64,000 nucleotides of DNA, taken from Prochlorococcus marinus str. MIT 9301 (lineage in GTDB: Bacteria > Cyanobacteriota > Cyanobacteriia > PCC-6307 > Cyanobiaceae). The DNA lies in the NCBI RefSeq assembly GCF_000015965.1, contig NC_009091.1, positions 1,116,001 to 1,180,000 of the forward strand, in the 5' to 3' direction. Below, one piece after another: positions 5,652 to 64,000 of the stretch. Numbering within the stretch: position 1 is the first letter of the stretch; every line of letters starts with the position of its first letter. Under the pieces are notes generated by a model. That model ran no database searches. It was not told where the DNA came from and saw only the letters and a program-made list of their open reading frames with translations. Position numbers and translations under genes: made by a program.

Positions 5652-5660
5652 AGTAACTTT

Positions 5661-7308: not shown

Positions 7309-7407
7309 TCAATCTCCCTGAAACTTTAACAACAGAGCACCACCAACCAATCCTATTGGTATCAGTATCCAAAAAACTGCTGCAATACTAAAAATTTCTT
7401 GAGCCAT
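7309..7407 (-). CDS. petM: Cytochrome b6-f complex subunit VII (PetM)
   Basis: A 32-aa peptide beginning [13 protein letters not shown] and ending in a short polar tail. It is one transmembrane helix with the glycine-rich [12 protein letters not shown] segment of PetM, and the length and the MA.EIF start match cyanobacterial PetM. It is a small structural subunit of the b6-f complex in the thylakoid. The gene lies 57 bases upstream of ycf39 on the same strand and is divergent from the hydrolase at 7502. Confidence 0.88.
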
Positions 7408-7501
7408 AGTAAAAATTTAAAGATTACTATAATTTACATTCAATATACATTTATTTGTTAAAAAAGTAGATAATGCAAATATCTTGAAAATTTTTGAATA
7501 A

Positions 7502-8443: not shown

Positions 8444-8446
8444 AAT

Positions 8447-8971
8447 ATGAAACATACATTATCAGTTCTTGTAGAAGATGAATCTGGAGCCTTGAGTAGA
8501 ATCTCAGGCCTCTTTGCTAGAAGAGGATTCAACATAGATAGCCTTGCAGTAGGACCTGCAGAATCCAAAGGGATTTCAAGGTTAACGATGGTAGTAGAGG
8601 GTGATGATGAAACTCTTCAACAAATGACTAAGCAACTTAATAAGTTATTTAATGTTCTTGGAGTTGTAGATTTTACTAATCTCGCAGCTGTTGAGAGGGA
8701 ATTGATGTTACTAAAAGTTTCATCGAAAGAAGATACTAGGAGTAATATCCTTGATATAGTTCAGATTTTCCGTGCAAAAGTTGTTGATGTATCAGATATG
8801 GCCCTAACTCTTGAGGTAGTTGGAGACCCTGGGAAGTTAGTTGCTCTAGAGAAATTACTCGAGCCATACGGCATCCTTGAAATAGCGAGGACTGGTAAGG
8901 TTGCTCTTAAACGCTCTTCAGGAGTTAATACAGAAATGTTGAAAATAAACAAATATTCACTAGAAATTTAA
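8447..8971 (+). CDS. ilvN: Acetolactate synthase small (regulatory) subunit
   Basis: 174-aa regulatory subunit of acetohydroxyacid synthase, the first common step of branched-chain amino acid synthesis. The N-terminal ACT domain is clear ([19 protein letters not shown], then the [14 protein letters not shown] turn); a second ACT-like C-terminal domain ends in GKVALKR. It mediates feedback inhibition by valine and activates the large subunit. The 3' end overlaps the convergent cyclophilin gene by four bases. Confidence 0.95.
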
Positions 8972-9624
8972 TTAATTATCTGGACTGCCTTGATGTAGTC
9001 TTCTTTATTAAGTTTTTTGAGTACATCTAATCCTTTTATAATTTTTCCAAAAATTGAATATCTTCCATCTAATTCTGGGATATTAGTTGTTACAAAGAAA
9101 AATTCAGTTGATGAAGACTTATTGTTAAAGCTCTTGACCATAGCAATTGAACCATTCTCAAAAGTATTAACTAAATTTTCAATTTCGTTAGGATTTTTTA
9201 TTTGATAGTTATATCTTGGTTTACTTTCTTCTTTAAATTTTATTTCTAAAGGTATTGATAGACTTGTCTTTTTCAGGTTTTGATTTCCTTCAAAATAAAA
9301 TTTATTTTTTGGATTAACACCGCCGTGTACAAATCTTATTTGGGTAAAATTTATTATTTTATAAAATTTTTGATTTACGTAAATATCATTGTCTATGTTT
9401 TCCAGAAAGTTTGACACTGTTACTGGGTTATCTTTACCAAATAATTCAACCTCAAAATCACCTTTTGTAGTTTTAAAATTAACTACTTTATTACTCTGAA
9501 TACAACTAAATCTAAGTTTTTGGCAATAATAAGTTGAATCAACCTTATTTTTATAACTACAAGCTTGAAACAAAAACAGAACCTGTATAAAAAATAATAT
9601 TCTTAATAAATATTTTTTTTTTAT
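8968..9624 (-). CDS. Cyclophilin-type peptidyl-prolyl isomerase, probable lipoprotein; apparent ATA start
   Basis: Cyclophilin-like domain ([17 protein letters not shown], later [23 protein letters not shown]). The first usual start codon is TTG at 9573, but the frame stays open upstream and encodes three lysines, a hydrophobic helix and a lipobox-like LFQAC (Cys22 counted from an ATA at 9624). A GGAGG ribosome-binding site lies seven bases before that ATA. I therefore place the start at 9624, giving 218 aa with a lipoprotein signal; starting at TTG would lose it. The ATA overlaps the TAA stop of ycf4. The isomerase probably acts in the periplasm or thylakoid lumen on proline-containing proteins. 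Confidence 0.75.
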
Positions 9625-10178
9625 TTTAAGCCCTCCAAATTAACATCCAAAAATTTAGCCAGACGAGCCCCCTCCTCTTCAACTTGAAGAAGTGGTTTGA
9701 GTTCACCTGCTCCGCTTAAAGGGAGAGGTTTTTTTCTTCCTTTTAATACTAATGCAATTCTTCTTCTAGGATTAAATCCCTCACTTATATCTAACTTGAC
9801 CGATTTAATTTCATCAAAATTTAATTTAACTTCAATATCTTTGAATAATCCTTTTCTTCTTATTTCTATAGATTTTGATGATTTATCAAAATAATTACTT
9901 CCTGAACCAAAGTTTATGTAAACCAAATACCACAAGTAAAAATTTAATAAGTTGGCTATTACTCCATATGCTCCCATTATTATTCCTTGAGGGATAAACA
10001 ATAAAGTTGAAGGATTTCCTAGAGGTAATAAATCCCTTCCTGTGTAGCTAGATATAGAGGCCAAAAGAAAACCAATACCTCCTATAGTTAGCATTCCTCC
10101 AATAATGTAATTTGAAATTTTTCTTGATCCACCAATTTTTTGTTCGATTTTATCGAAAGACTTGAGGTCTGAATTCAT
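9621..10178 (-). CDS. ycf4: Photosystem I assembly protein Ycf4
   Basis: 185-aa thylakoid membrane protein. Two hydrophobic hairpin helices occupy residues ~25-100 (IGGMLTIGGIGFLLASISSY, then the GIIMGAYGVIANLLNFYLWY segment). A soluble C-terminal domain carries the EIRRKGLFKDIEVKLNFDEI and RRRIALVLKGRKKPLPLSG motifs of Ycf4. It is a scaffold for photosystem I assembly. Its stop codon TAA provides the first bases of the probable start of the following cyclophilin gene. Confidence 0.95.
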   Translation of the reverse strand: MNSDLKSFDKIEQKIGGSRKISNYIIGGMLTIGGIGFLLASISSYTGRDLLPLGNPSTLLFIPQGIIMGAYGVIANLLNFYLWYLVYINFGSGSNYFDKSSKSIEIRRKGLFKDIEVKLNFDEIKSVKLDISEGFNPRRRIALVLKGRKKPLPLSGAGELKPLLQVEEEGARLAKFLDVNLEGLK

Positions 10179-10361
10179 TTTTATCCCTTTTTTAGAGCCT
10201 AATTCAGATAATTTAACAAATTAAGGGAGTATTCTTACCTAATTTTTAATAAAAAAGTCAGGAAAGCTTTACAAGGCATTTCAGATATACAGATATTTCC
10301 CCACATTACTCTCAATCTTTGTTACAGTCACTGCGTATCCCGAAGCTAAAAACGATTTCTC

Positions 10362-11438
10362 ATGACGATCGCAGTTGGTAGCGCCCCACAAAGAGGATGG
10401 TTTGATGTCCTCGATGATTGGTTGAAGCGCGACCGCTTTGTATTTATTGGTTGGTCCGGACTACTTCTACTTCCTTGTGCATACCTTGCTATAGGTGGTT
10501 GGTTTGTCGGAACAACATTTGTTACCTCTTGGTACACACACGGAGTTGCAAGTTCATACCTTGAAGGTTGTAACTTCTTAACAGCAGCTGTAAGCACCCC
10601 TGGTGATGCCATGGGACACAGTCTTCTATTTTTATGGGGTCCTGAAGCCCAAGGTAGTTTCGTAAGATGGCTACAACTTGGTGGTCTTTGGAACTTCGTT
10701 GCATTACATGGAGTATTTGGCCTAATTGGTTTTATGCTTCGTCAGTTTGAAATTGCTGGCCTTGTTGGAATTAGACCATACAACGCACTAGCTTTCTCAG
10801 CAGTAATTGCAGTATTCACAAGTATTTTCCTTATTTATCCTTTAGGACAGCATAGTTGGTTCTTCGCACCTTCATTCGGTGTTGCAGCAATCTTCCGTTA
10901 CATCCTATTCATTCAAGGTTTTCACAATATCACTTTAAACCCATTCCATATGATGGGAGTTGCTGGAATTCTTGGTGGTGCTCTACTTTGCGCTATTCAT
11001 GGAGCTACAGTTCAAAATACTTTGTATGAAGATACAAGTATTTACACAGATGGTAAGGTTCAAAGTTCAACATTTAGAGCTTTTGATCCAACTCAAGAAG
11101 AAGAAACCTATTCAATGATTACAGCGAATAGATTTTGGAGTCAAATCTTCGGTATTGCTTTCTCAAACAAGCGTTTCTTACATTTCTTGATGCTATTTGT
11201 ACCTGTTATGGGTATGTGGACATCTTCTATTGGTATTGTCGGCTTAGCACTAAACTTGAGAGCTTATGACTTCGTAAGCCAAGAAATTCGTGCAGCAGAA
11301 GATCCAGAATTTGAAACTTTCTATACAAAAAATATACTTTTGAACGAAGGTATGCGAGCATGGATGTCTTCTGTGGATCAACCACACGAAAACTTTGTAT
11401 TCCCTGAGGAGGTTCTTCCACGTGGAAACGCCCTTTAA
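10362..11438 (+). CDS. psbD: Photosystem II D2 reaction-centre protein
   Basis: 358 aa, start [20 protein letters not shown] as in other marine picocyanobacteria. Five transmembrane helices; the chlorophyll and iron histidines are present, for example in [18 protein letters not shown] and [19 protein letters not shown]2 pairs with D1 in the photosystem II core and holds the QA quinone. The 183-base gap upstream, opposite ycf4, should contain its promoter. The 3' end overlaps psbC, the universal arrangement. Confidence 0.99.
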
Positions 11439-12804
11439 TAATTTATTAAGAGCTCCAAACCAAAGTATTGAGGAAACTGGTTATGCCTGGTATGTAGGCA
11501 ACGCTAGATTAATCAATTTATCTGGACGTTTATTAGGAGCTCACATTGCTCACTCTGGACTAATAGTCTTTTGGGCGGGAGCAATGATGCTCTTTGAGGT
11601 TAATCACTTTACTTTTGATAAACCAATGTGGGAGCAAGGTTTAATCTGTATGCCACACGTCGCGATGTTTGGCTATGGAATAGGCCCTGGTGGTGAAGTT
11701 ACTGATATCATGCCTTTCTTCCAGGCAGGCGTGGTTCACTTAATAGCTTCTGCTGTTCTTGGTTTTGGTGGTATTTATCACTCATTAGCAGGTCCAGAAA
11801 AACTCGAAGAAGATTTTCCATTTTTCTCCACCGACTGGAGAGACAAAAACCAAATGACAAATATCCTTGGATATCATTTGATTGTTTTAGGTGTAGGTGC
11901 GTTAGCATGGTCAGTTAACTGGTGTTTTATTGGCGGTGCATATGATACATGGGCACCAGGCGGTGGTGAAGTCAGACTTGTTAACCCAACTTTAGATCCA
12001 AGAGTTATTCTTGGTTATTTATTCAGATCTCCATGGGGAGGAGCTGGATCAATAATCGGCGTTAACTCCATAGAAGATATTGTTGGTGGTCACGTTTATG
12101 TTGGAATTACTGCAATTATCGGTGGAATATTCCATATCTTTACCAAACCTTTTGGATGGGCAAGAAGAGCATTTATCTGGAATGGTGAAGGCTTATTAAG
12201 TTATGCACTTGGTGGAATTTGTGTAGCAAGTTTTATTGCTTCAACATTCATCTGGTTTAACAACACTGCTTACCCTTCAGAATTCTACGGTCCAACTAAT
12301 GCTGAAGCATCACAGGCTCAAAGTTTTACTTTCCTTGTGAGAGATCAAAGAATTGGAGCTAATGTAGGTTCAACAATGGGACCAACAGGTCTAGGTAAGT
12401 ATCTCATGAGATCTCCTACTGGTGAAATTATATTTGGTGGTGAAACAATGAGATTTTGGGATTTCAGAGGTCCATGGTTAGAGCCTTTAAGAGGTCCTAA
12501 CGGATTGAGCCTTGAGAAAATCCAAAATGATATTCAGCCTTGGCAGGTAAGAAGAGCCGCTGAATATATGACTCATGCTCCTAACGCTTCTATCAACTCT
12601 GTTGGTGGAATTATTACAGAGCCAAATGCTGTTAACTTCGTTAACCTTAGACAGTGGTTAGCTGCAGCTCAATTCTTCCTAGGATGGTTTACATTCATTG
12701 GTCACCTTTGGCATGCTGGACGTGCTAGAGCAGCCGCTGCTGGTTTCGAAAAAGGAATCGACAGAAAGAGTGAACCGGCTCTAGAAATGCCTGATTTAGA
12801 TTAA
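11422..12804 (+). CDS. psbC: Photosystem II core antenna CP43
   Basis: 460-aa six-helix chlorophyll-binding protein of photosystem II. I choose the GTG at 11422 ([12 protein letters not shown]), 17 bases inside psbD, because GAGGAGG lies nine bases upstream within the psbD coding sequence and CP43 normally starts with an internal GTG in psbD. The large lumenal loop includes [20 protein letters not shown], the segment whose Glu and Arg contact the oxygen-evolving cluster. A strong terminator follows at 12826. Confidence 0.98.
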
Positions 12805-12825
12805 TTTCTATCTCAACTAAAAAAG

Positions 12826-12852
12826 CCCTATCTTTAGATAGGGTTTTTTTTT
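12826..12852. terminator. Rho-independent terminator between psbC and maf, bidirectional
   Basis: An inverted repeat CCCTATCT/AGATAGGG (12826-12843) is followed by a run of T on the plus strand and preceded by a run of A. It can therefore end the psbDC transcript and, on the minus strand, the maf transcript. Confidence 0.85.
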
Positions 12853-12863
12853 GCTCAATTTTA

Positions 12864-13475
12864 TTATCTATATAAGTTTTTTCTGAGCCATGGCAAACTT
12901 AAACCCATTACATTACTGAAACAACCCTCTATTTTTTCTATATATTTACCTCCTATACCTTCCAAGGCAAATCCTCCTGCACAATATAAAGGTTCATTTG
13001 TATCTACATAACTCTTGATTTCCCAATCTTCCAAATTAGAAAAATAAACTCTTGAACTTACTGTTTTTTTTATTATTTCAGTGATTTTAAAAATTTTGGA
13101 AGTTGAATCAAAATTCCCAATTATTAGAGTATGACCAGTATGTAAAAATCCAAATTCTCCAGACATTTTTTTCCATCTAATAAATGCTTCCTCTTTATTA
13201 GATGGTTTCCCATAAGCTTCACCTTTAAATTCAAAAATTGAATCGCACCCAAGTATTTCCAAAGGACCATGATTCAATTCTTCGGGCAATGATAAGTTCT
13301 GAATATTTTCAGATAAACTATTAGCCTTTTGAAAAGATAATTCCAAAGCTAAATTAAATATATTCTTTTCTTGGATAGTAGTTTCGTCAAAGTCACTTGA
13401 TATTTGGAAAAATTCGATTTGACAATTTTCTAGTAATTTCTTTCTAGATTGAGAAGCAGAGGCTAGAATTAACAC
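12864..13475 (-). CDS. maf: Maf-family nucleoside triphosphate pyrophosphatase
   Basis: 203 aa. The start [17 protein letters not shown] is the Maf signature (SASxxR+xLL), with SSDFDETTI, the [16 protein letters not shown] segment and [20 protein letters not shown] near the end. Maf proteins hydrolyse non-canonical or methylated NTPs and are linked to septum arrest and housecleaning. The usual ADT(V/I) metal-site motif is replaced by GCDS, a modest deviation. Divergent from cobQ with a 66-base gap. Confidence 0.88.
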
Positions 13476-13541
13476 AAATTTTTTACCAAATTATAATTCA
13501 ATTTAATAATTAATAAATTTTAAAATTAATATAAATTACTA

Positions 13542-15071
13542 ATGGAATTAGAGGCAAAATTACATGAAATAAAGAAACCAATAATGGTCCTAGGTACTTC
13601 CAGTGGAGCAGGAAAATCATTAACAGTTACTGCTATTTGTAGGATTCTTAAAAACTTAGGCGAAGAACCAATCCCTTTTAAAGGACAAAATATGAGCAAC
13701 AACGCTTGGGTTGATTGGGAAGGTGGAGAAATGGCATATTCACAAGCACTTCAGGCTTTTGCTTGTGGTATTAATCCCGCTGCAGAGATGAATCCCATTT
13801 TATTAAAACCACAAGGAAACTCAATAAGCGAGGTGATTCACCTTGGCAAAAGCATAGGGACCACCACTGCAAAAAATTACTATAAGGATTGGTTTACTCC
13901 AGGTTGGGAAGTAATTAAAAAAAGTTTAAAGTCTATTTACGAAGGAAATCCGAATTGCCGTTTAATTATCGAAGGGGCTGGAAGTCCGGTAGAGATGAAT
14001 TTAATTCATAGAGATCTGACTAATTTAAGAGTTGCTAAATATTTAAATGCAAATTGCATTTTGGTTACTGATATTGAAAGGGGAGGCGTATTTGCACAAA
14101 TAATTGGTACTCTTGAATTAATGAAGCCTGAAGAAAAGAAGCTTATTAAGGGAATTATTATAAATAGATTCAGAGGAGACCTTTCATTATTTGAAGATGG
14201 GAAGAAATGGATAGAGAATAAGACTCAAATCCCTGTTGTTGGAATTATTCCATGGTTAAATGATTCATTTCCCCCAGAGGACTCTTTAGATTTAATAGAA
14301 AAAAAATCACTTTCTAAAAATCCTGAAATCAAAGTTGGAATTATAAAATTACCATCTATTAGTAACTTCTCGGATTTTGATCCACTAGAAAATGAAGAAA
14401 CGATATTTATTGAATGGATTAGAAAATCACAAAATCTAAGTAAGTATGACTTCATCATTCTGCCGGGAAGTAAACAAACGATTAAAGATCAAATATTTCT
14501 TGAAAATTCTGGTTTATCTAAGGATATAAGGGACTATTCAAAAAACAAAGGAAATATTGTTGGAATATGTGGAGGCTTACAAATGTTAGGGACTACACTT
14601 GAAGATCCATATTTTAAAGAGGGTTCCAAAAATTATTCTGAACAAAAAATTAAAGGTATTGGATTACTACCCTTAAAAACGACTTTCTTTAAAAAAAAAT
14701 TAACACGTCAAATTAAATCTAAATCTATATGGCCGTGCCAATCAGAAATTAATGGATTTGAAATTCATAATGGTCAAACTGTATTAGATGAAATCCAAAG
14801 TTCATTAAAGATTAATCCAATTTTTGAAGATTCAGATCTTGGTTGGTATAAAGAAAATAATAAAGGAGGAACTATTGCAGGAACATATATTCATGGAATC
14901 TTTGAAAATGACAGTTGGAGAGAGCATTATATTAATTTAATAAGGAAGAGTAAAAATCTACCAACATTAAACAAAAAATCAATATCTTATAAAGAGAAGA
15001 GACAATTCATTATTGATAATCTTGCGAATGAATTCCACAAACATTTAAATCTCAAATCATTTTTAAGTTGA
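13542..15071 (+). CDS. cobQ: Cobyric acid synthase
   Basis: 509-aa glutamine-dependent amidase of cobalamin (pseudocobalamin in marine cyanobacteria) synthesis; it amidates four carboxyls of adenosyl-cobyrinic a,c-diamide. The N-terminal ATPase domain has the P-loop GTSSGAGKSLTVTA. The C-terminal class I amidotransferase domain has the Cys nucleophile in GICGGLQMLG and the His in GTYIHGIF. No cobalamin riboswitch is visible upstream. Its TGA overlaps the start of the ferredoxin-like gene. Confidence 0.96.
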   Translation: MELEAKLHEIKKPIMVLGTSSGAGKSLTVTAICRILKNLGEEPIPFKGQNMSNNAWVDWEGGEMAYSQALQAFACGINPAAEMNPILLKPQGNSISEVIHLGKSIGTTTAKNYYKDWFTPGWEVIKKSLKSIYEGNPNCRLIIEGAGSPVEMNLIHRDLTNLRVAKYLNANCILVTDIERGGVFAQIIGTLELMKPEEKKLIKGIIINRFRGDLSLFEDGKKWIENKTQIPVVGIIPWLNDSFPPEDSLDLIEKKSLSKNPEIKVGIIKLPSISNFSDFDPLENEETIFIEWIRKSQNLSKYDFIILPGSKQTIKDQIFLENSGLSKDIRDYSKNKGNIVGICGGLQMLGTTLEDPYFKEGSKNYSEQKIKGIGLLPLKTTFFKKKLTRQIKSKSIWPCQSEINGFEIHNGQTVLDEIQSSLKINPIFEDSDLGWYKENNKGGTIAGTYIHGIFENDSWREHYINLIRKSKNLPTLNKKSISYKEKRQFIIDNLANEFHKHLNLKSFLS

Positions 15072-48092: not shown

Positions 48093-48230
48093 ATTTAACT
48101 AAATCATTGTCCATTTATTCTATGAAAAATAACCACAATTAACAAACAATTTAAACAAGAAAAATAAATATTTATTTTAATGGCATAGAGTTGTTGTTTA
48201 GTAGATGAAACTTAGATATAATTACATAAT

Positions 48231-48304
<74 letters not shown>

Positions 48305-48331
48305 TAATTTTAAGACGCTTAAAGAAATTAA

Positions 48332-53255: not shown

Positions 53256-53261
53256 TTGATT

Positions 53262-53906
53262 ATGAAACAATTAAATACTGAAGCTTTAGAATCTATATTT
53301 GAAAATTATGATTATATATTCTGGGATTATGATGATACCTTATCTCCTACGGTGGAAAAGAAAGGCATTGCATATATAAAAATATTTAAAGAATATCCTC
53401 AAGAATTAAAGGATTTCATCTTAGATCATCATAAAAAATTTCCAGGCGTAAGTAGACAAGTTAAGCTGCCAATTTATTTAAAAGAAAGTCTTAAATACAA
53501 AGATGTAAACTTTGACTCAAAATTAATAGATCTAAAAAGAAAGTTTTCTATAGAATGCATTCAGATTTTAAGTGTAATCCCAATTTTTAAAAATATAGAA
53601 AAATTCTTGAAGAACAGTAAAAAACATAATTTTATTATTACAAATATGCCTCAGGAAGAAATAAATGAAACTATAAAATCAAAATTATTAAAAGAATTTT
53701 TTATTCAGATTATTGGAGATGCCATTGATAAGGCTGATATTCTCAAAGAAAAACTGAGTAACATTAAAGATAAAGAAAGGTGCGTTTTTGTAGGAGATAG
53801 TAAAACAGATTATGAAGCAGCTTATAATTGTAATATAGATTTTATTTTAAAAAGTTCTTCACTGAATAAATCTCTTCAATTAATACCTAGAATTAAAATT
53901 ATTTAA
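53262..53906 (+). CDS. HAD-superfamily phosphatase
   Basis: 214 aa from the ATG at 53262; a TTG six bases earlier is possible. HAD motifs: DYDDT (Asp22, Asp24, Thr26), NM after a hydrophobic strand (FIITNMPQEE), a Lys region and VFVGDSKTDYEAAY. The cap is of the C1 helical type. It is likely a phosphatase acting on a sugar phosphate, by analogy with KdsC in its setting. Ten bases upstream of the aldolase gene. Confidence 0.82.
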   Translation: MKQLNTEALESIFENYDYIFWDYDDTLSPTVEKKGIAYIKIFKEYPQELKDFILDHHKKFPGVSRQVKLPIYLKESLKYKDVNFDSKLIDLKRKFSIECIQILSVIPIFKNIEKFLKNSKKHNFIITNMPQEEINETIKSKLLKEFFIQIIGDAIDKADILKEKLSNIKDKERCVFVGDSKTDYEAAYNCNIDFILKSSSLNKSLQLIPRIKII

Positions 53907-53915
53907 TTAATAAAT

Positions 53916-54707
53916 ATGATCTCTTCCAAAATTATTAATAAAGAGCTTAATCAAATAAGAAAAAAATTAAATATTGGGATACCAAGTATTGGAAGTTGGT
54001 TGCAATTAAATAATACGTCAGTTGGAGCTATCATTGCCAAAAATAATTTTGACTGGCTTACTCTTGATTTAGAACATGGAGATATTGACGAAGCGGATAT
54101 ACCTCTAATGGTAAATTCGATTCAGTATTATTGTCCATTAGTTTTTGCACGAATAAGATCACCACAAACAACATATTGTTCGAGAGCATTAGATCTAGGA
54201 GTTAACGGAATAATAATTCCAAAAATTGAAAGCTTTGAGCAAATAAACAATTTAAGAGAAAGTATTTATTATCCCCCTTATGGTTGTAGAGGAGTTGGCT
54301 ATGCAAATACAAACTTATTTGGAGAAAATCTGCTGGACCACTTAAACGAACTAAATGAGCCATTCATAGTTCCCATGATAGAGACAAAAAAAGGAGTTGA
54401 GGAACTTGAAAGCATATTACGATGTAAAGGCATAGATGCTATTCTAATTGGACCATACGATCTAAGCGCTTCTTATGGAGTACCTGGCGAAATTCAATCA
54501 GAAATAGTTAAAGAAAAAGTTGATTATATTTTAAAAACTTGCAAAAAATTTGCTGTTCCTGCTGGCTTACACATAGTTGAACCTGATGAGAAAAGTTTGA
54601 ACGAAGCAATAAAAAAAGGATTCACATTTTTACCATATAGTATCGATACAGTATTCTTAAGGAAAGCTTCTAAAAAGCCTAATAATATCCATTATCAAAA
54701 AAAATGA
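53916..54707 (+). CDS. HpcH/HpaI class II pyruvate aldolase
   Basis: 263 aa TIM barrel of the HpcH/HpaI family. Visible catalytic elements: DLEHGDID (His54), FARIRSP (Arg79), metal ligands Glu156 in PMIETKKG and Asp182 in IGPYDLSAS, and GCRGVGYAN. These enzymes join pyruvate to an aldehyde, or cleave 2-keto-3-deoxy acids. Its stop overlaps the kdsB-like start by four bases, so the two are coupled. A role in making a 2-keto-3-deoxy sugar acid for surface glycan is inferred from context. Confidence 0.9.
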   Translation: MISSKIINKELNQIRKKLNIGIPSIGSWLQLNNTSVGAIIAKNNFDWLTLDLEHGDIDEADIPLMVNSIQYYCPLVFARIRSPQTTYCSRALDLGVNGIIIPKIESFEQINNLRESIYYPPYGCRGVGYANTNLFGENLLDHLNELNEPFIVPMIETKKGVEELESILRCKGIDAILIGPYDLSASYGVPGEIQSEIVKEKVDYILKTCKKFAVPAGLHIVEPDEKSLNEAIKKGFTFLPYSIDTVFLRKASKKPNNIHYQKK

Positions 54708-55447
54708 AAACTATAGGATTAATCCCTGCAAGAATGGGAAGTTCGAGATTACAAGGGAAACCTTTAAAAAAGATAAAAGGTAAAGAGATGCTCTTAAGAG
54801 TATATGAAAATGCATTAAATGCAAAATTAATAGATACTCTTTATATAGCTACTTGTGATGAAGAAATAAGAAGAACAATGGATGCATACGGATGCAAGGT
54901 AGTCATGACTGGTTCACACCACACAAGATGTACTTCTAGATGTGCAGAAGCATTGATAAAAATAGAAAAAACATGTAATTATACTTTCGATAATATTGTT
55001 ATGATTCAGGGAGATGAACCTTTGGTAAAGGGTGCTGAAATCGATGAAGCAGTTAAATTAATTATTGACAACAAGGATATTAGAATTGCAAATCTTATAG
55101 GAAAAATTGAAAGCTATGAAGAATTTACCGATAGGAACACTATAAAAGTGGTTCTAACAAAAAATGACGAAATACTTTATTTTTCTAGAGGAAATATTCC
55201 ATTCTCTGAGAAAGATAATTTTAAATATGCTTTTAAACAGGTATGTATCATTCCAATGAAAAGAGATATACTTGAAATTTTTACAAAATTTGAAGAGACT
55301 ACTTTAGAGAAAATTGAATCAATAGATATGCTTAGATTAATTGAAAATAAAATTCCTATAAAAGCAAAATTAATCAAATATAAAACTCAAGCAGTAGATG
55401 TTCCTTCTGATATTAAGAAAGTTGAGAAAATACTCACAAATGAATAA
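54704..55447 (+). CDS. kdsB: KdsB-like CMP-sugar acid cytidylyltransferase, diverged
   Basis: 247 aa. GLIPARMGSSRLQGKPLKKI and IQGDEPLV (102-108) are the KdsB cores for CTP and metal. At residues 69-82, where KdsB normally reads TS..H.SGTDR.AE, this protein has TGSHHTRCTSRCAE, so the Asp-Arg pair is changed. It probably activates a 3-deoxy-ulosonate with CTP, perhaps not Kdo itself. Confidence 0.85.
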   Translation: MKTIGLIPARMGSSRLQGKPLKKIKGKEMLLRVYENALNAKLIDTLYIATCDEEIRRTMDAYGCKVVMTGSHHTRCTSRCAEALIKIEKTCNYTFDNIVMIQGDEPLVKGAEIDEAVKLIIDNKDIRIANLIGKIESYEEFTDRNTIKVVLTKNDEILYFSRGNIPFSEKDNFKYAFKQVCIIPMKRDILEIFTKFEETTLEKIESIDMLRLIENKIPIKAKLIKYKTQAVDVPSDIKKVEKILTNE

Positions 55448-56933
55448 AACTCTAAAAGAATACAATAAAAAGCTTAGTGAATTATCCTTAATATTTGGTC
55501 CAAAATCATTATTTTCTCCAACTTTATGCAGGATAGAAGGTCAAACAAATTTATTTAGAAATATATTTATAAATAATAAAAAAAATAAAAATCAAAATTT
55601 TATAAGTTTAAGTTTAAATTTTTTAAAAAATTTTAGCTTTGTTTTAAAACCAATAAGAGATTTTGTATTCATGTTAAATTCTGAAAAAAAAGTTTTTCCT
55701 AAAAATATAAATAGACTATTTATAACCTATGGAGATTATAGAAACATCTCATATAAAAAAAACTGGGAAGAAGAAATTTTTAGGGGTATCAAACCAAGTA
55801 AAAAAAATAAAATCTTAGTTATTTCTCTTGGCAAATCAATAAAGGATGTCGTTAAAAATATAAACTATATAAAAAATTGTAATCAGAAGAAAGATATCTA
55901 CTCAATTTATTCAATGATTGAATTAAAAGATATTTTAAATGCTTTTTTGAAGAGTAATTTTTACTTTTTTACGTATTTATTTGGACTATCATCAAGAAAA
56001 ATATTTATTAATAGAAAAAATATAAAATCTTTTGTAATAAAAAGTTTGATTAATGATTATGCAAGAGGTTTTTTGTATAGTAATTGTCTTTTCTCAAATA
56101 TTTGGTCTAATACATTAAAAAATAATCCAAAAAAAATTATTTTCCCTTGGGAATCACATTGTTGGGAAAGGTTACTAATGCATCAAGTAAACAAGGATAA
56201 AATGTTCCAAACTATTTCCACTATAGGTTATCAACATACTGGATTTTCATACGGACTTCTTCAACATTTCGCAACCAAATCTGATGAGAAAAATTTTATT
56301 AATCCTCAAATAATCTTCTCATGCGGTGAAATTCAAAAAGAAAAATTAGATCAAATTGAAGGATTGTCAAAAGTAAGAAAATTTACAGTTGGGTCCCTTC
56401 GATGTAAATCAAATCCAGATATTAAAACTCTTTATTCCAAATTGAATAAAAAAATAAAGAATATATCTGTTGCACTAGGTTATAATCAGAAAAATTACCA
56501 AACAATTATTGACGAGCTAAATAAAGTAAATAAAAAAATTAATATATACATTTTTCTTCACCCGTTAAACTATAAATTCAATCCCACTAAATATCTTGAT
56601 AATAATATCATTTTAAAATATAAAAGAAATAATAAATTAATAAAAGATTCGGACTTATTAATTGTTGATGACAACTCAATGATGATAGAGGGATGGACAT
56701 TAGGAGTTCCCACAATAATTTATGAAACAGACTCTTATAAATTAACTAAAAGAGACTGGAAAAGTCCAATCTTGCATATCACAAAAAAAAATATTAATGA
56801 ACTAGATAAGAAAAATTTTAGAGCTAAACTTGATAGTTCCATCAAGATATATTTAAAGTCAAAGTATTATGAAAAATATTTCAAGGAAATAAATTTTTCT
56901 AAATTTGAAAATTTTTTATCACAAGTAAATTAG
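55440..56933 (+). CDS. Surface carbohydrate biosynthesis protein (TIGR04326-like), putative glycosyltransferase
   Basis: 497 aa from the ATG at 55440, which overlaps the KdsB-like gene by eight bases; longer starts run through that gene. Lys/Asn-rich N-terminal half, then IFPWESHCWERLLMHQ, the QHTGFSYGLLQHFATKS stretch, IFLHPLNYKF and a C-terminal DDNSMMIEGWTLGVPTIIYE. The last part resembles the nucleotide-sugar end of GT-B enzymes such as the CDP-glycerol or sialyl-type transferases. It is a candidate transferase for the CMP-sugar made next door. Ends four bases into the convergent ptmE. Confidence 0.65.
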   Translation: MNKTLKEYNKKLSELSLIFGPKSLFSPTLCRIEGQTNLFRNIFINNKKNKNQNFISLSLNFLKNFSFVLKPIRDFVFMLNSEKKVFPKNINRLFITYGDYRNISYKKNWEEEIFRGIKPSKKNKILVISLGKSIKDVVKNINYIKNCNQKKDIYSIYSMIELKDILNAFLKSNFYFFTYLFGLSSRKIFINRKNIKSFVIKSLINDYARGFLYSNCLFSNIWSNTLKNNPKKIIFPWESHCWERLLMHQVNKDKMFQTISTIGYQHTGFSYGLLQHFATKSDEKNFINPQIIFSCGEIQKEKLDQIEGLSKVRKFTVGSLRCKSNPDIKTLYSKLNKKIKNISVALGYNQKNYQTIIDELNKVNKKINIYIFLHPLNYKFNPTKYLDNNIILKYKRNNKLIKDSDLLIVDDNSMMIEGWTLGVPTIIYETDSYKLTKRDWKSPILHITKKNINELDKKNFRAKLDSSIKIYLKSKYYEKYFKEINFSKFENFLSQVN

Positions 56934-58000
56934 ATTTCATTAGCTTTACTTGAATTTCTAATCCTTTTATAATCTTCAGGTCTTCCTACATCCGTCCATT
57001 CTTCATGCAAAGCAAAAACTTTTAAAATTTTTTTCTTATTTATACCTAGTTCAAATAATTGATTCATATCAATATGTTTCCCCTTTTCTATTAAACCAAT
57101 CAAATTTTTTGAAACAACATAAACTCCAGCATTAATTGTAGATTTATATATTGGTTTTTCAGAAATTCCAATAAAATTATCATTACTAGTTTCAATTACT
57201 CCAAATGGATTTTGCAATCCAAATTCTTTAACAGCAATTACTCCATCAGCTTTTGTATATTTGGCAAAATTCAACATATTACTATATTCTAATGATGTTA
57301 CAACATCACCATTGGTAATAAAAACATAATCAGTAAGCAAATCTTTTTTTAAATATGCTAATGAACCTGCAGTCCCCAGGGGTTTTTCTTCTTGAATATA
57401 GCTTATATTAATCCCAAATTTATCCCCATTACCAAAATATTCCTTTATTACCTCTCCCAAATAACCAATTGACAGGACAAAATTTCTGAAGCCAAACTCC
57501 TTTGCATTATTAATTATTAATTCGATCATTGGCTTACCACTTATATGCAACATTGGTTTAGGAAGATTTTTAGTTAAAGGTCTCATTCTTAAACCTTTAC
57601 CTCCAGCTAATATAAAAAAGGTTTCATTAATAAAACTCTCTTCTATTAAATTATTAGAAACAAAGATGCCCTTAAATTTATTATTTTCATCAACTAAAGG
57701 TATATGAAAAATATGATTCTTTATCATTAATCTATAAATTTTTTCTTCTGATAAAAATTCATGAACTTTAATAGGTTGATAGTTTATTACATCAGATAAT
57801 TTACTACTTTTTGAAACGCCATTTAAAATTCCTCTTCTTAAATCACTATCAGTTATTATTCCTTCCAAATAATTTTGCTCGTTAAAAACTAGACAAATTT
57901 GGAAGCCACCTTTATTTATCTTTTGAATAGCTTCCCCTACATTATCCTTAATGTTTACAGAAAAATCTCTACAGTTTTTAATAAAAAAATTCCTTTTCAT
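56930..58000 (-). CDS. ptmE: CBS-domain sugar-1-phosphate nucleotidyltransferase, PtmE-like
   Basis: 356 aa: two CBS repeats (residues ~15-120: GGFQICLVFNEQNYLEGIIT, IFHIPLVDENNKFKGIFVS) and a nucleotidyltransferase domain with FILAGGKGLRMRPLTKNLPK, FITNGDVVTS and EWTDVGRPEDY. This fusion matches PtmE, the GlcN-1-P guanylyltransferase that opens the GDP route to legionaminic acid. It is the last gene of the nonulosonic operon. Confidence 0.87.
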   Translation of the reverse strand: MKRNFFIKNCRDFSVNIKDNVGEAIQKINKGGFQICLVFNEQNYLEGIITDSDLRRGILNGVSKSSKLSDVINYQPIKVHEFLSEEKIYRLMIKNHIFHIPLVDENNKFKGIFVSNNLIEESFINETFFILAGGKGLRMRPLTKNLPKPMLHISGKPMIELIINNAKEFGFRNFVLSIGYLGEVIKEYFGNGDKFGINISYIQEEKPLGTAGSLAYLKKDLLTDYVFITNGDVVTSLEYSNMLNFAKYTKADGVIAVKEFGLQNPFGVIETSNDNFIGISEKPIYKSTINAGVYVVSKNLIGLIEKGKHIDMNQLFELGINKKKILKVFALHEEWTDVGRPEDYKRIRNSSKANEI

Positions 58001-58002
58001 AC

Positions 58003-58221
58003 TTACAATAAATTAAATTTATAGTCTTTAAAGATTTTTCTAAACTTTTTTATACTTGAATCAATTATATGTATAGTTTTTATATAAGTACAAACTTTAT
58101 ATTTTAAAAAAGAAACTATTTTAAAAAAACTTTTTTTTTCTAAAATATTGTAAGATTGATTATTTTTAAATAAATTTTTATAATTTTTATTGAGTAAATT
58201 TTTTATCATATTAATTTGCAA
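58003..58221 (-). CDS. Doubtful 72-aa ORF in the nonulosonic operon
   Basis: Very Lys/Asn/Ile/Phe-rich frame between legG and ptmE with two-base gaps on both sides. It starts at TTG; an ATG is codon 5. No motif. The exact tiling favours expression as part of the operon, but the low complexity leaves a chance frame possible. Confidence 0.35.
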   Translation of the reverse strand: MQINMIKNLLNKNYKNLFKNNQSYNILEKKSFFKIVSFLKYKVCTYIKTIHIIDSSIKKFRKIFKDYKFNLL

Positions 58222-58223
58222 AC

Positions 58224-59336
58224 TTAGTTAATTATTTCTTTAAGTATCTTAATTATTTCATAACTTGGTAATTTTCTTTCTATTTGTAAATTCCTTGGTT
58301 GAGATAGAGGAGTTTTCCCTTCCTTTATTTTTTTAAGTGATTCATACATTTCTTTATATGATCCATCTAGATTGGACACCTTACCAAAAGTTGATCTTCC
58401 TTTTTGCCTTTCACCAATATTTAAGGAAGGTATTCCTATCAATGGTGCCTCAATAATTCCACTAGAGGAATTTCCAATTACTACATCAAATAACTTTAAA
58501 GATGAAATATATAAATCAGAGCCAAGAGATTTATAAAGGAAACATCTATCACTATTACGCTCTGAAAATCTAATTAAAGCAGTTTTAATTATTTCCCCAC
58601 CTTCATCTATATTTGGGTATGTAATAAGTACATTTGCCTCTAATTCAAGAATCACTCTAAATATATTTTTTAACTTCTCAAGACCATAATCATAAATATA
58701 ACTTTCTGGATGGAATGTCAGAATTATATTAAATTTATCAAATTTGAAATTAAGTTTTTTTTCGAATTGACTATGAGTAATTGATTCATGGCAATTTAAT
58801 AAATCTTTGATCATAGGCCCTACGGTAAATATATTTTTCTTATTTACGCCCATATTTAGTAAATTCTTTGTGTGTTTTTCTAAACTAGTAAAGTGAAGAT
58901 TGGCTAATTGACTAATTGCATTCCTAAACCCATTATCCAGAGAGCCAAAAGTAACTTCTCCACCATGCAAATGTATAATTTTTATTTTCTTTAAAAATGC
59001 CGAATAAACAGCGCCTAATGCCTCATACCTATCACCCAAGACTATTAAAAAATCAGGATTGAAATCCTCAAAAAACTTAGATATTTTTGTTATTAACTCA
59101 GCTGTGATTTCAGCAGCATTTTTATCTCCCTTAATTGATAGGTGAATAAATTCAAGATTAGAGAATCCATCTTTTTTAATCTGGTCACATGTATAACCAT
59201 ACTCATCCTCTAAATGTGTTCCTGTAACAATGATTATAAGTTGAAATAGTTTTTCAGAATCTAATAATTTGCATAGATTCCTTAATAAACCATATTCAGC
59301 CCTCGTAGAAGTAAAAACAGCTATTTTAGATTTCAT
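58224..59336 (-). CDS. legG: Hydrolysing UDP/GDP-GlcNAc 2-epimerase family protein (LegG/NeuC)
   Basis: 370 aa GT-B fold. IAVFTSTRAEYGLLRNLCKL, GTHLEDEYGYT, VLGDRYEALGAVYSA, HLHGGEVTFGSLDNGFRNAI and VIGNSSSGIIEAPLIGIPSL are the NeuC/LegG blocks. It removes the nucleotide and epimerises C2 to give a manno-configured sugar for the synthase. Start overlaps the legI end by eleven bases. Confidence 0.9.
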   Translation of the reverse strand: MKSKIAVFTSTRAEYGLLRNLCKLLDSEKLFQLIIIVTGTHLEDEYGYTCDQIKKDGFSNLEFIHLSIKGDKNAAEITAELITKISKFFEDFNPDFLIVLGDRYEALGAVYSAFLKKIKIIHLHGGEVTFGSLDNGFRNAISQLANLHFTSLEKHTKNLLNMGVNKKNIFTVGPMIKDLLNCHESITHSQFEKKLNFKFDKFNIILTFHPESYIYDYGLEKLKNIFRVILELEANVLITYPNIDEGGEIIKTALIRFSERNSDRCFLYKSLGSDLYISSLKLFDVVIGNSSSGIIEAPLIGIPSLNIGERQKGRSTFGKVSNLDGSYKEMYESLKKIKEGKTPLSQPRNLQIERKLPSYEIIKILKEIIN

Positions 59337-60351
59337 TTAAATTAAGATCTAATATTAGATCTCCATCTTTATAATCCTTGGATGCTACTGCTCCAATAAC
59401 CTTATCTATTTCCATTGGACTTAAACCATTACCTGGTCTTTGAAAGATTATATTTTTTTTTGTGATTAAAGAACCTTTTTGAATATTATTAAAGGCTCTT
59501 ATTGATCTCCTAGCTATTAATTTATTTTCAATTTCACTTTCTTTTGTTTCTTTTCTACTGTTACCTAACATCACCTCCGTTGCTCTTATATCACTAACCA
59601 TTTTTGCAAATAATTTAGGAGTAATACTCGCTTTATGGTCGGGACCAGGCAGGTCCTTATCAAGAGTTAAATGTTTCTCTATTGCAGATGCTCCTAGTGC
59701 AATTGAAATAATCGGCGCAATTATATTTTCACTATGATCCGAATAGCCTGTTTTACAACCAAAGCAATTTTGCAAAGTACTCAATACTTTTAAATTTAAG
59801 TCTTTATTTGGAGCAGGATAACTACTTACACAATGCATTATTGTTATTCTTTCTAGGGTCTCTTTAAATCTTAAAAGAGATAAAGCTTCCTCAATATCCC
59901 CTAAACTAGACATACCGGTAGATAATAAAACATTAATGTTTCCTTCTGAGATGAATTTACCTATTTCACTAATGAGAGCATAATTAGTAATTTCTCCAGA
60001 AGGTATTTTTATTGAAAGCATTCCTAAATCTAAAAGGAAATGTAATTCATCAACCCCAAAAGGAGATGACATAAACTCTATTCCAATTTCATTACAAAAA
60101 CTAAAAATTCTTTTTGTATCCTTATCCGTAAGTTCTAAAGATTTAAGCATATCTATTTGACTTTTATAAGAATTCGATTTTTTTTGATATTGAGCTAGAG
60201 GGGCAGAAAAACTAGCGAGGGATTCACTTTTAAAAGTCTGAAACTTAATAGAATCAGCTCCAGACAATTTAGCTTCTTCAACTAACTTTAAAGCTAAATC
60301 TAAAGATCCATTATGATTTACTCCCGCTTCAGCTATTACTTTAGTGGCCAT
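59326..60351 (-). CDS. legI: N-acetylneuraminate/legionaminate synthase (LegI/NeuB)
   Basis: 341 aa: VIAEAGVNHNGSLDLALKLV, the DSIKFQTFKSE motif, EFMSSPFGVDE, GYSDHSE and a C-terminal SAF antifreeze-like domain with RRSIRAFNNIQKGSLITKKN. It condenses PEP with the amino sugar to form the nine-carbon acid. Overlaps both neighbours. Confidence 0.94.
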   Translation of the reverse strand: MATKVIAEAGVNHNGSLDLALKLVEEAKLSGADSIKFQTFKSESLASFSAPLAQYQKKSNSYKSQIDMLKSLELTDKDTKRIFSFCNEIGIEFMSSPFGVDELHFLLDLGMLSIKIPSGEITNYALISEIGKFISEGNINVLLSTGMSSLGDIEEALSLLRFKETLERITIMHCVSSYPAPNKDLNLKVLSTLQNCFGCKTGYSDHSENIIAPIISIALGASAIEKHLTLDKDLPGPDHKASITPKLFAKMVSDIRATEVMLGNSRKETKESEIENKLIARRSIRAFNNIQKGSLITKKNIIFQRPGNGLSPMEIDKVIGAVASKDYKDGDLILDLNLNEI

Positions 60352-60929
60352 CCCATTACTCTCTTACCGGCACTTATTATTGTACCCCTCGGAAGAGATA
60401 AACCTTCCCTTATCATAACTTTACTTCCTATAAAACTTTCACGGCCAATTTTAACACCTCCATTAACAGTAACCGAAGTAGAAATATGAGAAAAGTCTCC
60501 TATATGAGTATCATGTTCTATCAGGCTTTGAGTATTAATTATACAATGCTTTCCAATATTACAATTTGCATTAACTATAGCAAAATGTCCTATTGTACAT
60601 CCTTCCTCAATTCTGGAGTATTTGCTAACGTATGAATTAGGAGAAATAATTGTAGGCAATTTGTAACCTAATAACTTTAAATCATTAATTTTTTTTACTC
60701 TCATTCGAGCAGACCCTATTTCACCAATTGCTAAAACTATATATTTATATTCTTTAGAAATTCTTTGCAAGTCTTTATCAGTCCATTTTACTTTGATATC
60801 TAATATTGATTGACCTAGTTCAGATTCAAGACCAACAATTCCAGCTATTTCCCACATTTCTGTACTTAAAATTAAATCTATCATTGATTTTGAATGACCT
60901 CCTGCACCAACTAGAACTACTTTTTTCAT
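60336..60929 (-). CDS. PglD/NeuD-like hexapeptide acyltransferase
   Basis: 197 aa: Rossmann-like start VVLVGAGGHSKSMIDLILST, then a left-handed helix with NTQSLIEHDTHIGDFSHIST (catalytic His) and GKRVMGWPLK end. In this operon it is the best candidate for the N-acetylation step (LegH role); O-acetylation as in NeuD is the alternative. Confidence 0.88.
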   Translation of the reverse strand: MKKVVLVGAGGHSKSMIDLILSTEMWEIAGIVGLESELGQSILDIKVKWTDKDLQRISKEYKYIVLAIGEIGSARMRVKKINDLKLLGYKLPTIISPNSYVSKYSRIEEGCTIGHFAIVNANCNIGKHCIINTQSLIEHDTHIGDFSHISTSVTVNGGVKIGRESFIGSKVMIREGLSLPRGTIISAGKRVMGWPLK

Positions 60930-62125
60930 TAAATAACAATTTGAGGACTACTTGGCAAAGAGATAATTAATTTCGATAAAGATTCAGAGATATCTAAATT
61001 AGATCTGAAACATTTATTGTACATTTCTGTTTTATGAATTAATTGCCAACATGGTCTTAATTGGATCCCTCTGTCCTTAGCTAAATTAATAATTGTATTA
61101 CGAATAAAGGAGATATCATTCAAATCCTTATCCAAAATCAAAGTTACAAGCCAATAGTTTGAAAATTCTGAAGATTTTTCTTCTTGAAGGACATTGATAT
61201 TTTTAATAGATTTAAAACTCTCAATATAATTTTTAGCTAACAATCTCTTAAGCTTTAATCTTTCATTAAAAACCTCCAACTGAGCAAAACCTAGTGCAGC
61301 ATTAATATTTGGCATTCTATCGTTCCAAGCTATTTGATCATGAATTATATTCCCATTATCATCTTCCATTTTTGCGGTTGTGGACAAGTGTTTTGCCTTT
61401 TTAGCTAAAATATTATCATTAGTAACTATGACTCCTCCTCCTCCAGTAGTAACTATTTTATTTCCATTAAAACTGTATACGCCTAAAGTCCCAAATGTCC
61501 CGCAATCTTTACCTTTAACTTTACTTCCTAGAGCTTCTGCTGCATCCTCAATAACGGGCAAATCCCATTCATCTGCTACTTTAATAAGTTGGTTTATTTT
61601 TGCGGGAATTCCAAAAACATGGACAACTATAATTGCCGATATTTTTTTTCCTGAAATTTTATTAAAAACAACTCCATTTCTCTTTTCTGCTACATTTTTT
61701 AAATGTTTAGAAAGTATTTCCGGATTTAAACCTAGAGTATCTTTCTCAATATCTACAAAATGTGGAGTTGCATTTAAATGAGCAATCGCATTAGCAGTTG
61801 CTATAAATGTGAGTGGCGGCATAATTACCTCATCTCCTTTATTTACTCCTACTAAGGAAAGAGCTAATCTTAATCCAACAGTTCCATTTGTAATCGCAAT
61901 AGCATTTTGTGAAGAAGTGATTTTTTTTATCTTATTTTCAAACTTTGTCACCCAATCACCTGATGTACTAACCCAAGCTTTATCAATACAATCTTTTACG
62001 TAATCTAATGCTTTATTGTCCTTAAAATATGGCTCATGCAACAAAATATCGTTGCTTTGATTTGGTTTTCTTACTACATTTTCTATTGCATCTACAATCT
62101 CATTGCAAAAAATAATATTCGTCAT
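60929..62125 (-). CDS. legC: LegC-like PLP-dependent sugar aminotransferase
   Basis: 398 aa DegT/DnrJ family. MPPLTFIATANAIAHLNATP, VIEDAAEALGSKVKGKDCGT and the PLP Lys in SFNGNKIVTTGGGG. The N-terminal part HEPYFKDNKALDYVKDCIDK is like LegC. It adds the 4-amino group to the keto sugar from LegB. ATGA overlap with legB. Confidence 0.92.
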   Translation of the reverse strand: MTNIIFCNEIVDAIENVVRKPNQSNDILLHEPYFKDNKALDYVKDCIDKAWVSTSGDWVTKFENKIKKITSSQNAIAITNGTVGLRLALSLVGVNKGDEVIMPPLTFIATANAIAHLNATPHFVDIEKDTLGLNPEILSKHLKNVAEKRNGVVFNKISGKKISAIIVVHVFGIPAKINQLIKVADEWDLPVIEDAAEALGSKVKGKDCGTFGTLGVYSFNGNKIVTTGGGGVIVTNDNILAKKAKHLSTTAKMEDDNGNIIHDQIAWNDRMPNINAALGFAQLEVFNERLKLKRLLAKNYIESFKSIKNINVLQEEKSSEFSNYWLVTLILDKDLNDISFIRNTIINLAKDRGIQLRPCWQLIHKTEMYNKCFRSNLDISESLSKLIISLPSSPQIVI

Positions 62126-63129
62126 AAAGAAAAATTATTATCAGAATAAAGGGTGTTATTTCTATTATTTATAAACCAATCAATTGTTTTTTTAATACCT
62201 TCCCTAAATCCATCTAAACCCTTATATTTTGGCTTCCAATTTGAAAGTTCTTGAAGCCTTGAACTATCACCAAAAAGTCTATTTACCTCAGATTTATCTG
62301 GCCTTAATCTTTTTTGGTCACTTATAATTGAAATTTTAGAGTTCATTATTTTTGAAATTTCTTTAACTGTATCAGCTATAGAAATTTCATATTCGCTTGC
62401 TGCATTTAAAATTTGTCCAGTAGTTTTATTACTTATACAAATCTTTTCAAAGGCTTCACAGGTATCACTTACGTAATTGAAATCCCTTGTTGGCATTAAA
62501 GATCCTAATGATATAAATTCCTTTTTTTCAAGGATTTGCAGAATTATAGAAGGTATTACAGCTCGGCAACTCTGTCGAGGACCATATGTATTAAATGGTC
62601 TTAAAATAGATACTGGAGTATTAAAACTTTTAAAGAAACTTAAAGCTAATTGGTCTGCTGCAATCTTTGTTGCGGCATATGGGGATTGAGCTACTAATGG
62701 ATGTTCTTCATTAATTGGAACATATTGAGCAGAACCGTAAGTTTCAGAAGTTGATGTATGGATGAGTTTTTCAATATCAAATTTTCGACAAGCTTCTAAA
62801 ACATTTAAAGTTCCTTTGATATTAGTATCAACATAGCTTGACGGAGAAGTATAACTATATGGAATTCCAATTAATGCTGCCAAATGAAAAACAAAATTAT
62901 TTGATTTTACTGCTTTTGAAATGGAGTCATAATTTCTAATATCCCCAAAAATATAATTTATATTATTTTTTATTTCAGGCGCAACAAAATCCAACCAACC
63001 TTTCAATCCAAATGAATTGTATAGACAGAAAGCATTAACTTCGTACCCTTTTCTAACAAGCATTTCCGTTAAATGAGATCCTATAAAGCCATCTGCACCA
63101 GTAACTAATACTTTTCTATTTTTATTCAT
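62122..63129 (-). CDS. legB: LegB-like NAD-dependent nucleotide-sugar 4,6-dehydratase
   Basis: 335 aa from the ATG at 63129, which shares ATGA with the SDR stop; a GTG at 63138 is less likely. VLVTGADGFIGSHLTEMLVR, YNSFGLKGWLDF, STSETYGSAQYVPINEEHP and the YAATK motif fit LegB. First ring-modifying step of the pathway. Confidence 0.92.
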   Translation of the reverse strand: MNKNRKVLVTGADGFIGSHLTEMLVRKGYEVNAFCLYNSFGLKGWLDFVAPEIKNNINYIFGDIRNYDSISKAVKSNNFVFHLAALIGIPYSYTSPSSYVDTNIKGTLNVLEACRKFDIEKLIHTSTSETYGSAQYVPINEEHPLVAQSPYAATKIAADQLALSFFKSFNTPVSILRPFNTYGPRQSCRAVIPSIILQILEKKEFISLGSLMPTRDFNYVSDTCEAFEKICISNKTTGQILNAASEYEISIADTVKEISKIMNSKISIISDQKRLRPDKSEVNRLFGDSSRLQELSNWKPKYKGLDGFREGIKKTIDWFINNRNNTLYSDNNFSL

Positions 63130-63884
63130 AAAGACCACCCATCATCAACTATTAAATTCTGACCAGATATACCTTTTGCTTGATCTGAGAGAAGAAACAA
63201 AATAGGATATGAAACATTTTTTGGTTTAAGTAGGCCAATATTATTGCAATCTGATTTATAGTTATTCTGAAAAATTTCTAACTGTTTATCCAATACTCCT
63301 CCTGGGCTAACACAGTTAATATTTAAATTAGAATTTTTAAAATATTTAGCAAGCCATTTAGTCATTATTATTATTGAAGATTTAACACAAGAATATTCTA
63401 TGGGAGAACTCATGCTTGTTCCACGATAGTGATGAAACTTAGGTGCAGCTATACCTTGTATTGATGCAATATTTACAAGACTGCCCCCTCCATTTATTTT
63501 TAAATAGTTGCAAATTATTCTTGATAAAATTATAGAAGAGCTTAATTGCATATTTAAATGCAAACTGACTTCATCAAGAGATATCTCATCAAATAATTTA
63601 CCCCAACTTTCTGGTCTAGGATAAGCACAGTGCACGAAACCATTAATTTTTACCCCACAATTTCTGATAAAATCCTTGAACTCTCTTAAACCTTTATTCG
63701 TCGTTAAATCACATTCAAAAAAACTATTTTTATCTGAATTAGAAGTATTTGTTGGGCTTTTTAAATCACAAGAAATTACATCAGCACCAGCCTCTAATAG
63801 TCTTTTGCATAAATCCAAGCCAATTAAACCTTCGCTTCCAGTAACTAAAAAAGTTTTGCCACTTAATGAAAAAAAATCTTCCAT
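63126..63884 (-). CDS. ptmA: PtmA-like short-chain dehydrogenase
   Basis: 252 aa SDR. KTFLVTGSEGLIGLDLCKRL, SLVNIASIQGIAAP, catalytic Tyr/Lys in EYSCVKSSII and a SGQNLIVDDGWSL end. The position between legF and legB matches PtmA of the Campylobacter legionaminic locus, needed for the GDP-sugar precursor. Exact step is inferred. Confidence 0.85.
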   Translation of the reverse strand: MEDFFSLSGKTFLVTGSEGLIGLDLCKRLLEAGADVISCDLKSPTNTSNSDKNSFFECDLTTNKGLREFKDFIRNCGVKINGFVHCAYPRPESWGKLFDEISLDEVSLHLNMQLSSSIILSRIICNYLKINGGGSLVNIASIQGIAAPKFHHYRGTSMSSPIEYSCVKSSIIIMTKWLAKYFKNSNLNINCVSPGGVLDKQLEIFQNNYKSDCNNIGLLKPKNVSYPILFLLSDQAKGISGQNLIVDDGWSL

Positions 63885-63890
63885 ATTAAA

Positions 63891-64000
63891 TCACTGATTT
63901 AAAAAGAATTCGGCCATTTTTAAATCAATTTCCGTATCAATATCTAAAGATCTTTCTTCTGGTATTTCTAAGCCTCCAATAACTCCATCTAATAAATTCT
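63891..64000 (-). CDS. legF: CMP-nonulosonate cytidylyltransferase, C-terminal end (LegF/PtmB/NeuA-like; truncated by window edge)
   Basis: Only the last 35 residues are in the window: they include EERSLDIDTEIDLKMAEFFL, the typical 'S.DIDTE.DL..AE' C-terminus of acylneuraminate cytidylyltransferases. It activates the nonulosonic acid with CTP. The stop is seven bases before the ptmA ATG. Confidence 0.8.
   Translation of the reverse strand, partial: NLLDGVIGGLEIPEERSLDIDTEIDLKMAEFFLNQ

Follow-up and report, generated by a model that had tools for sequence, protein, structure and literature searches.

A legionaminic-type nonulosonic acid operon in a replacement island of Prochlorococcus marinus MIT 9301 and its predicted GDP-sugar route

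Introduction

The biosynthesis of cytidine monophosphate (CMP)-legionaminic acid has been described in Campylobacter jejuni, where the pathway comprises PtmF, PtmA and PtmE together with LegB, LegC, LegH, LegG, LegI and LegF (Schoenhofen et al. 2009, as cited in PMC4481668 and PMC7371886). In Plesiomonas shigelloides 302-73, legionaminic acid (Leg) is carried on flagella, and ptmA, legH and legF mutants are without flagella (PMC4481668). Prochlorococcus and Synechococcus were listed in 2009 among the carriers of sialic or nonulosonic acid synthesis genes (PMC2693436), and we found little besides that report in the literature on legionaminic or nonulosonic acids with Prochlorococcus. Here we analyze a 64-kb stretch of the Prochlorococcus marinus MIT 9301 genome (the window; bases 1116001-1180000 of a single contig of 1,641,879 bases), which ends in an operon with a legionaminic-type gene set.

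The pathway is well known and its gene set is found across many phyla; the operon in the window is a diverged version of it. The C. jejuni pathway has the same enzyme types, including PtmE and the PtmF- and PtmA-like proteins, a likeness drawn from the literature and not from sequence. The operon differs from it in its location, which is a polysaccharide island of a marine cyanobacterium rather than a flagellar island, and in having an acetyltransferase of the hexapeptide PglD/NeuD type. The Leg region of P. shigelloides 302-73 has the same gene set with similar sizes (PtmA 254, LegF 229, PtmF 326, PtmE 352, LegI 359 and LegG 382 amino acids), but in another order, and serves flagellin glycosylation there (PMC4481668). 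Among Prochlorococcus and related cyanobacteria, one locus (L048) has the same order from LegG to LegF, with PtmE beside LegG but on the opposite strand, another (L046) has the order PtmE-PtmF-LegF-PtmA-LegB, and four loci of related cyanobacteria (L144-L147) have the PtmF-LegF-PtmA cassette as here. These modules are diverged and reshuffled relative to the operon, with at most 48% identity in LegI and about 62% in LegB.

Results

A complete legionaminic-type operon

The original prediction described nine minus-strand frames at 56930-64000, most of them overlapping or a few bases apart, that encode the enzyme types PtmE, PtmA, LegB, LegC, an acetyltransferase, LegG, LegI and a partial LegF. 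All of these types were identified by Pfam and NCBIfam family matches, and eight of the nine frames are genes with strong matches:

56930..58000, minus strand: PtmE/LegX-like protein, 356 amino acids, two CBS domains and a sugar-1-phosphate nucleotidyltransferase; predicted glucosamine 1-phosphate (GlcN-1-P) guanylyltransferase (Pfam, motif, co-occurrence)
58003..58221, minus strand: AT-rich spacer, not a gene (72-amino-acid frame; composition, no Pfam match)
58224..59336, minus strand: LegG, hydrolysing nucleotide-sugar 2-epimerase of the NeuC type, 370 amino acids (TIGR03568, solved relatives)
59326..60351, minus strand: LegI, NeuB-family nonulosonate synthase with a SAF domain, 341 amino acids (Pfam, NCBIfam, tree)
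60336..60929, minus strand: PglD/NeuD-type hexapeptide N-acetyltransferase in the LegH role, 197 amino acids (TIGR03570, PglD_N and Hexapep)
60929..62125, minus strand: LegC, pyridoxal phosphate (PLP) aminotransferase, 398 amino acids (TIGR04181)
62122..63138, minus strand: LegB, NAD-dependent 4,6-dehydratase of the retaining type, 338 amino acids (TIGR04180)
63126..63884, minus strand: PtmA-like short-chain dehydrogenase (SDR), 252 amino acids (PRK09186)
63891..64574, minus strand: LegF, CMP-nonulosonate synthetase, 227 amino acids (PF02348); the window holds its C-terminal end only (63891..64000, the last 110 bases)
64571..65539, beyond the window: PtmF-like Gfo/Idh/MocA oxidoreductase, 322 amino acids, overlapping LegF by 4 bases

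The last two genes were read past the window edge, in the adjoining piece L002 (L002:9891-10574 and L002:10571-11539), so that legF is now complete; a GalE gene and then a family 2 glycosyltransferase (GT2) gene follow the PtmF-like gene. Neighbouring genes overlap by no more than 16 bases or are separated by a handful of bases; only LegG and PtmE stand further apart, with a gap of 223 bases. The 72-amino-acid frame in this gap, counted among the nine frames of the original prediction, was rejected as a gene: its GC content is 11.9% and its codon positions show no bias (0.12/0.12/0.11), against 27-32% and a clear bias in the neighbours. This region is confirmed as a real operon with a full legionaminic-type gene set.

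Family membership of the core enzymes

LegB (TIGR04180, 507 bits against a cut-off of 475), LegC (TIGR04181, 500 against 420), LegG (TIGR03568, 386 against 236) and the acetyltransferase (TIGR03570 of the NeuD type, 174 against 161; Pfam PglD_N and Hexapep) all passed their NCBIfam cut-offs. The LegB motifs TSETYG and YAATK, the PLP lysine motif NGNK of LegC and the LegF motif RGGSKGITKKN were intact, and the EHDTHIG motif of the acetyltransferase lined up with solved PerB/VioB/PglD-type enzymes. LegG is of the NeuC type and not a PseG, as its family match indicates, and its nearest solved chains (5xvs/5zlr, GDP/UDP-N,N'-diacetylbacillosamine 2-epimerase) scored 212 bits against 125 for human GNE. 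LegG and LegI could be aligned with solved NeuC and NeuB across conserved blocks, and the nearest solved chains to LegF (PF02348) were the CMP-NeuNAc synthetases 6ifd and 1eyr. The cluster therefore contains both an N-acetyltransferase and a CMP-sugar synthetase. The pseudaminic acid (Pse) families stayed below their cut-offs (PseB 67 against 408, PseC 194 against 424 and PseI 252 against 340 bits), PseB and PseC by far.

LegI, the sole NeuB-family protein in the genome, matched PF03102 (8e-80) and a SAF domain, and scored 397.7 bits with the NeuB_NnaB model (cut-off 399.65). In a tree of 47 synthases it fell within a clade of LegB-linked synthases (support 98/91), a clade labelled Leg by gene context and not by assayed enzymes, and outside both the solved N-acetylneuraminic acid (Neu5Ac) synthases (100/100) and the PseI/SpsE clade (97/89). 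The phylogeny agrees with a Leg-type synthase, though weakly in statistical terms: in approximately unbiased (AU) tests, trees with LegI forced into the Neu clade (p 0.048) or the Pse clade (p 0.053) were worse at borderline significance. The trees also placed LegI outside the other Prochlorococcus LegI clade, yet a joint grouping was not rejected (p 0.53), and we therefore make no claim of a separate horizontal origin.

Gene content and the GDP route

The PtmE-like protein matched the Pfam families CBS (6.6e-14) and NTP_transferase (7.6e-35), and its motif GGKGLRMRPLTKNLPKP is intact. The PtmA-like SDR passed PRK09186 (334 bits against a cut-off of 255). Since the PtmE-PtmF-LegF-PtmA cassette is conserved in the related cyanobacteria L144-L147, we named the oxidoreductase beside LegF PtmF-like. 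In addition, the genome encodes GlmU and a GlmM homologue. Across 80 LegB loci surveyed in a wide range of phyla, LegB, LegC, LegG, LegI, PtmE and LegF co-occur (LegI 61/80, PtmE-like frame 61/80, LegG 62/80). This gene content (PtmE, the PtmF- and PtmA-like genes, GlmU and the GlmM homologue) fits a route through guanosine diphosphate (GDP)-sugars, from which we infer the nucleotide specificity of PtmE, LegB and LegG. The GDP route had been proposed from the PtmE and PtmA types; the CBS-bearing PtmE and the PtmF-like gene beside LegF, as gene content, argue for it.

Island setting

The operon is confirmed to lie within a replacement genomic island, as the differing genes behind a shared junction indicate. 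The left edge of the island is:

48230..48305, plus strand: tRNA-Arg (UCU)

The cysQ-rsmI-tRNA-Arg junction is common to four relatives (L230, L231, L232 and L234), with mostly different genes behind it. The island reaches at least L003:10096 (about 84096 in window numbering). Its further genes encode a membrane protein, possibly a polymerase, as well as an ABC transporter, proteins resembling WecA and WbpM, and a trio of HisH-, HisF/WbuZ- and WbuX-like proteins (L003:7577-10096) about 17 kb beyond LegF. The WbuX-like protein matched the N-acetyl sugar amidotransferase model with 314 bits (cut-off 203), and some island sugar may therefore carry an acetamidino group. A third cytidylyltransferase lies at L002:17412-18107; the three dedicated CTP_transf_3 proteins of the genome are all in the island, and a fourth, weak match is GlmU.

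Discussion

In our view, the operon is probably a complete gene cassette whose product is a nonulosonic acid of the legionaminic type, activated with CMP and formed by a GDP-sugar route. In such a pathway, housekeeping GlmM and GlmU and the PtmF/PtmA pair would supply glucosamine phosphate, and PtmE would couple GlcN-1-P to guanosine monophosphate (GMP), leading from GlcN-1-P to GDP-N-acetylglucosamine (GDP-GlcNAc). LegB would dehydrate GDP-GlcNAc at C4/C6, LegC would aminate C4, the PglD-type enzyme would acetylate the C4 amine, and LegG would remove GDP and invert C2. LegI would then condense the 2,4-diacetamido-trideoxymannose with phosphoenolpyruvate (PEP) to 5,7-diacetyl-legionaminic acid (Leg5Ac7Ac), and LegF would add CMP to yield CMP-Leg. 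Finally, a glycosyltransferase encoded in the island would transfer the sugar to a surface polymer resembling an O-antigen or a capsule.

Several points weigh against this reading. LegI misses the NeuB cut-off by about 2 bits, and its clade takes its label from gene context. Furthermore, Neisseria-type synthases, which group with Neisseria NeuB (100/100), also adjoin LegB in two Prochlorococcus clusters (L061 and L051), so that the product cannot be read from the clade of the synthase alone. The PtmA-like SDR is under the cut-off of the PtmA equivalog NF050062 (188 against 350 bits), the GlmM homologue is 4 bits under its own, and PtmF-like and PtmA-like genes were each found in only 11/80 LegB loci, which makes them an optional part of the set. 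No Leg transferase was identified, the Campylobacter comparison is one of literature, and the case as a whole rests on genes and sequence.

A product that is a stereoisomer or derivative of Leg, such as 4-epi-Leg, 8-epi-Leg or a form given an acetamidino group by the HisH-HisF-WbuX trio, is possible, at odds well short of even. The Elg proteins of Escherichia coli make 8-epi-Leg. They are close homologues of the Plesiomonas Leg enzymes (PMC4481668), and homology therefore does not fix C8 or C4. We found no dedicated epimerase within the operon; the strong WbuX match is in keeping with an acetamidino derivative, but this amidotransferase may target another sugar. It is unlikely that the same sugar class is made by a uridine diphosphate (UDP) route, in which LegB, LegC, the acetyltransferase and LegG would use UDP-GlcNAc in the manner of UDP-diacetylbacillosamine pathways, with PtmE serving another sugar. 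The solved protein closest to LegG has both GDP- and UDP-substrates in its name, the structure-solved relatives of LegC (PglE-like 4ztc) and the acetyltransferase (PglD 3bss) are UDP-linked, and the WbpM-like dehydratase is in the island; however, PtmE lies inside the operon, 61 of the 80 LegB loci surveyed have a PtmE-like frame, and PtmF- and PtmA-like genes are also present. An operon for Neu5Ac or pseudaminic acid is very improbable: general models name LegI NeuB and LegG NeuC and the AU tests were merely borderline, but Neu5Ac synthesis requires neither LegB nor LegC, the PseB and PseC scores are low and LegG is in the NeuC family.

Next to the predicted GDP-route Leg operon, the plus strand (53256-56933) encodes a haloacid dehalogenase (HAD) phosphatase, an HpcH/HpaI aldolase and a KdsB-like CMP-sugar synthetase (53256-55447), followed by an orphan protein of 511 amino acids. 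These genes are convergent with the operon, with a 4-base overlap at 56930-56933. The HAD, aldolase and KdsB-like genes are a possible aldolase-based CMP-ulosonate module. A Leg cluster in L138 also has all three types next to it, and L054 has two of the three. In Prochlorococcus G073 (L057:7444-10476), KdsB-like and HAD genes adjoin a DRE-TIM-type aldolase-like protein (the aldolase called by sequence reading only), which may be a second kind of aldolase-plus-CMP-transferase module. The 511-amino-acid protein was considered as a Leg transferase and rejected, as it has no family match and its structure model is useless (mean pLDDT 36.6); searches of other genomes of Prochlorococcus and cyanobacteria, and of the viral contigs, found no homologue.

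Related genes occur in phages. The viral contigs L152-L156 carry PtmE-, LegB-, LegG- and LegI-like genes, most of them also LegF, and in L152 and L153 LegB, LegC, LegG and LegI were matched by family models, though under most cut-offs. One of these contigs (L152, IMGVR_UViG_3300022221_000008, positions 3155-12649; also L235) holds a compact legionaminic-type cluster with a PtmE-like protein without CBS domains, LegF, a radical SAM protein, a methyltransferase, a HisF-like protein, LegB, LegC, LegG, a LegI of 266 amino acids and a hexapeptide transferase; such genes were also seen in L153-L156, and a GT2 in L152. The L152 record is a T7-like podophage with terminase, a T7-like connector, and head and tail genes; a Pfam search of the phage contigs for TerL gave no match, but PHROGs does find the L152 terminase. 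The cyanophage record MH319754.1 (L237; Marine virus AG-345-L05, Kyanoviridae) has at 6433-14430 a NeuB-family synthase of 272 amino acids with no SAF match, accompanied by a cytidylyltransferase, a DegT aminotransferase, SDRs, a glycosyltransferase-like protein and a methyltransferase. The synthase was matched in only 3 of 50,697 phage records. In many of the marine viral contigs L159-L174, a KdsB-like frame and a LegB-like SDR lie some 2 kb apart.

The phage nonulosonate clusters and the adjoining aldolase module are more surprising than the operon itself. A speculative picture, to which we give little credence, would combine them: one surface glycan would carry two CMP-activated ulosonic acids, a (perhaps amidinated) Leg from the GDP route together with another acid produced by the pyruvate-aldolase module with its HAD, HpcH aldolase, KdsB-like and 511-amino-acid orphan proteins, and nonulosonates would be part of a phage-host contest in which cyanophages have nonulosonate genes of their own.

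A NeuB-family synthase was found in 65 of the 151 Prochlorococcus genomes searched, the nearest being 48% identical to LegI of the window; this chemistry may therefore be common in the genus, and the version in the window is not. The Leg cassette is replaceable as a block. If expressed, it would place a carboxylated, sialic-acid-like residue on the surface of one of the most abundant phototrophs, where the residue could plausibly affect charge, grazing and the adsorption of phages.

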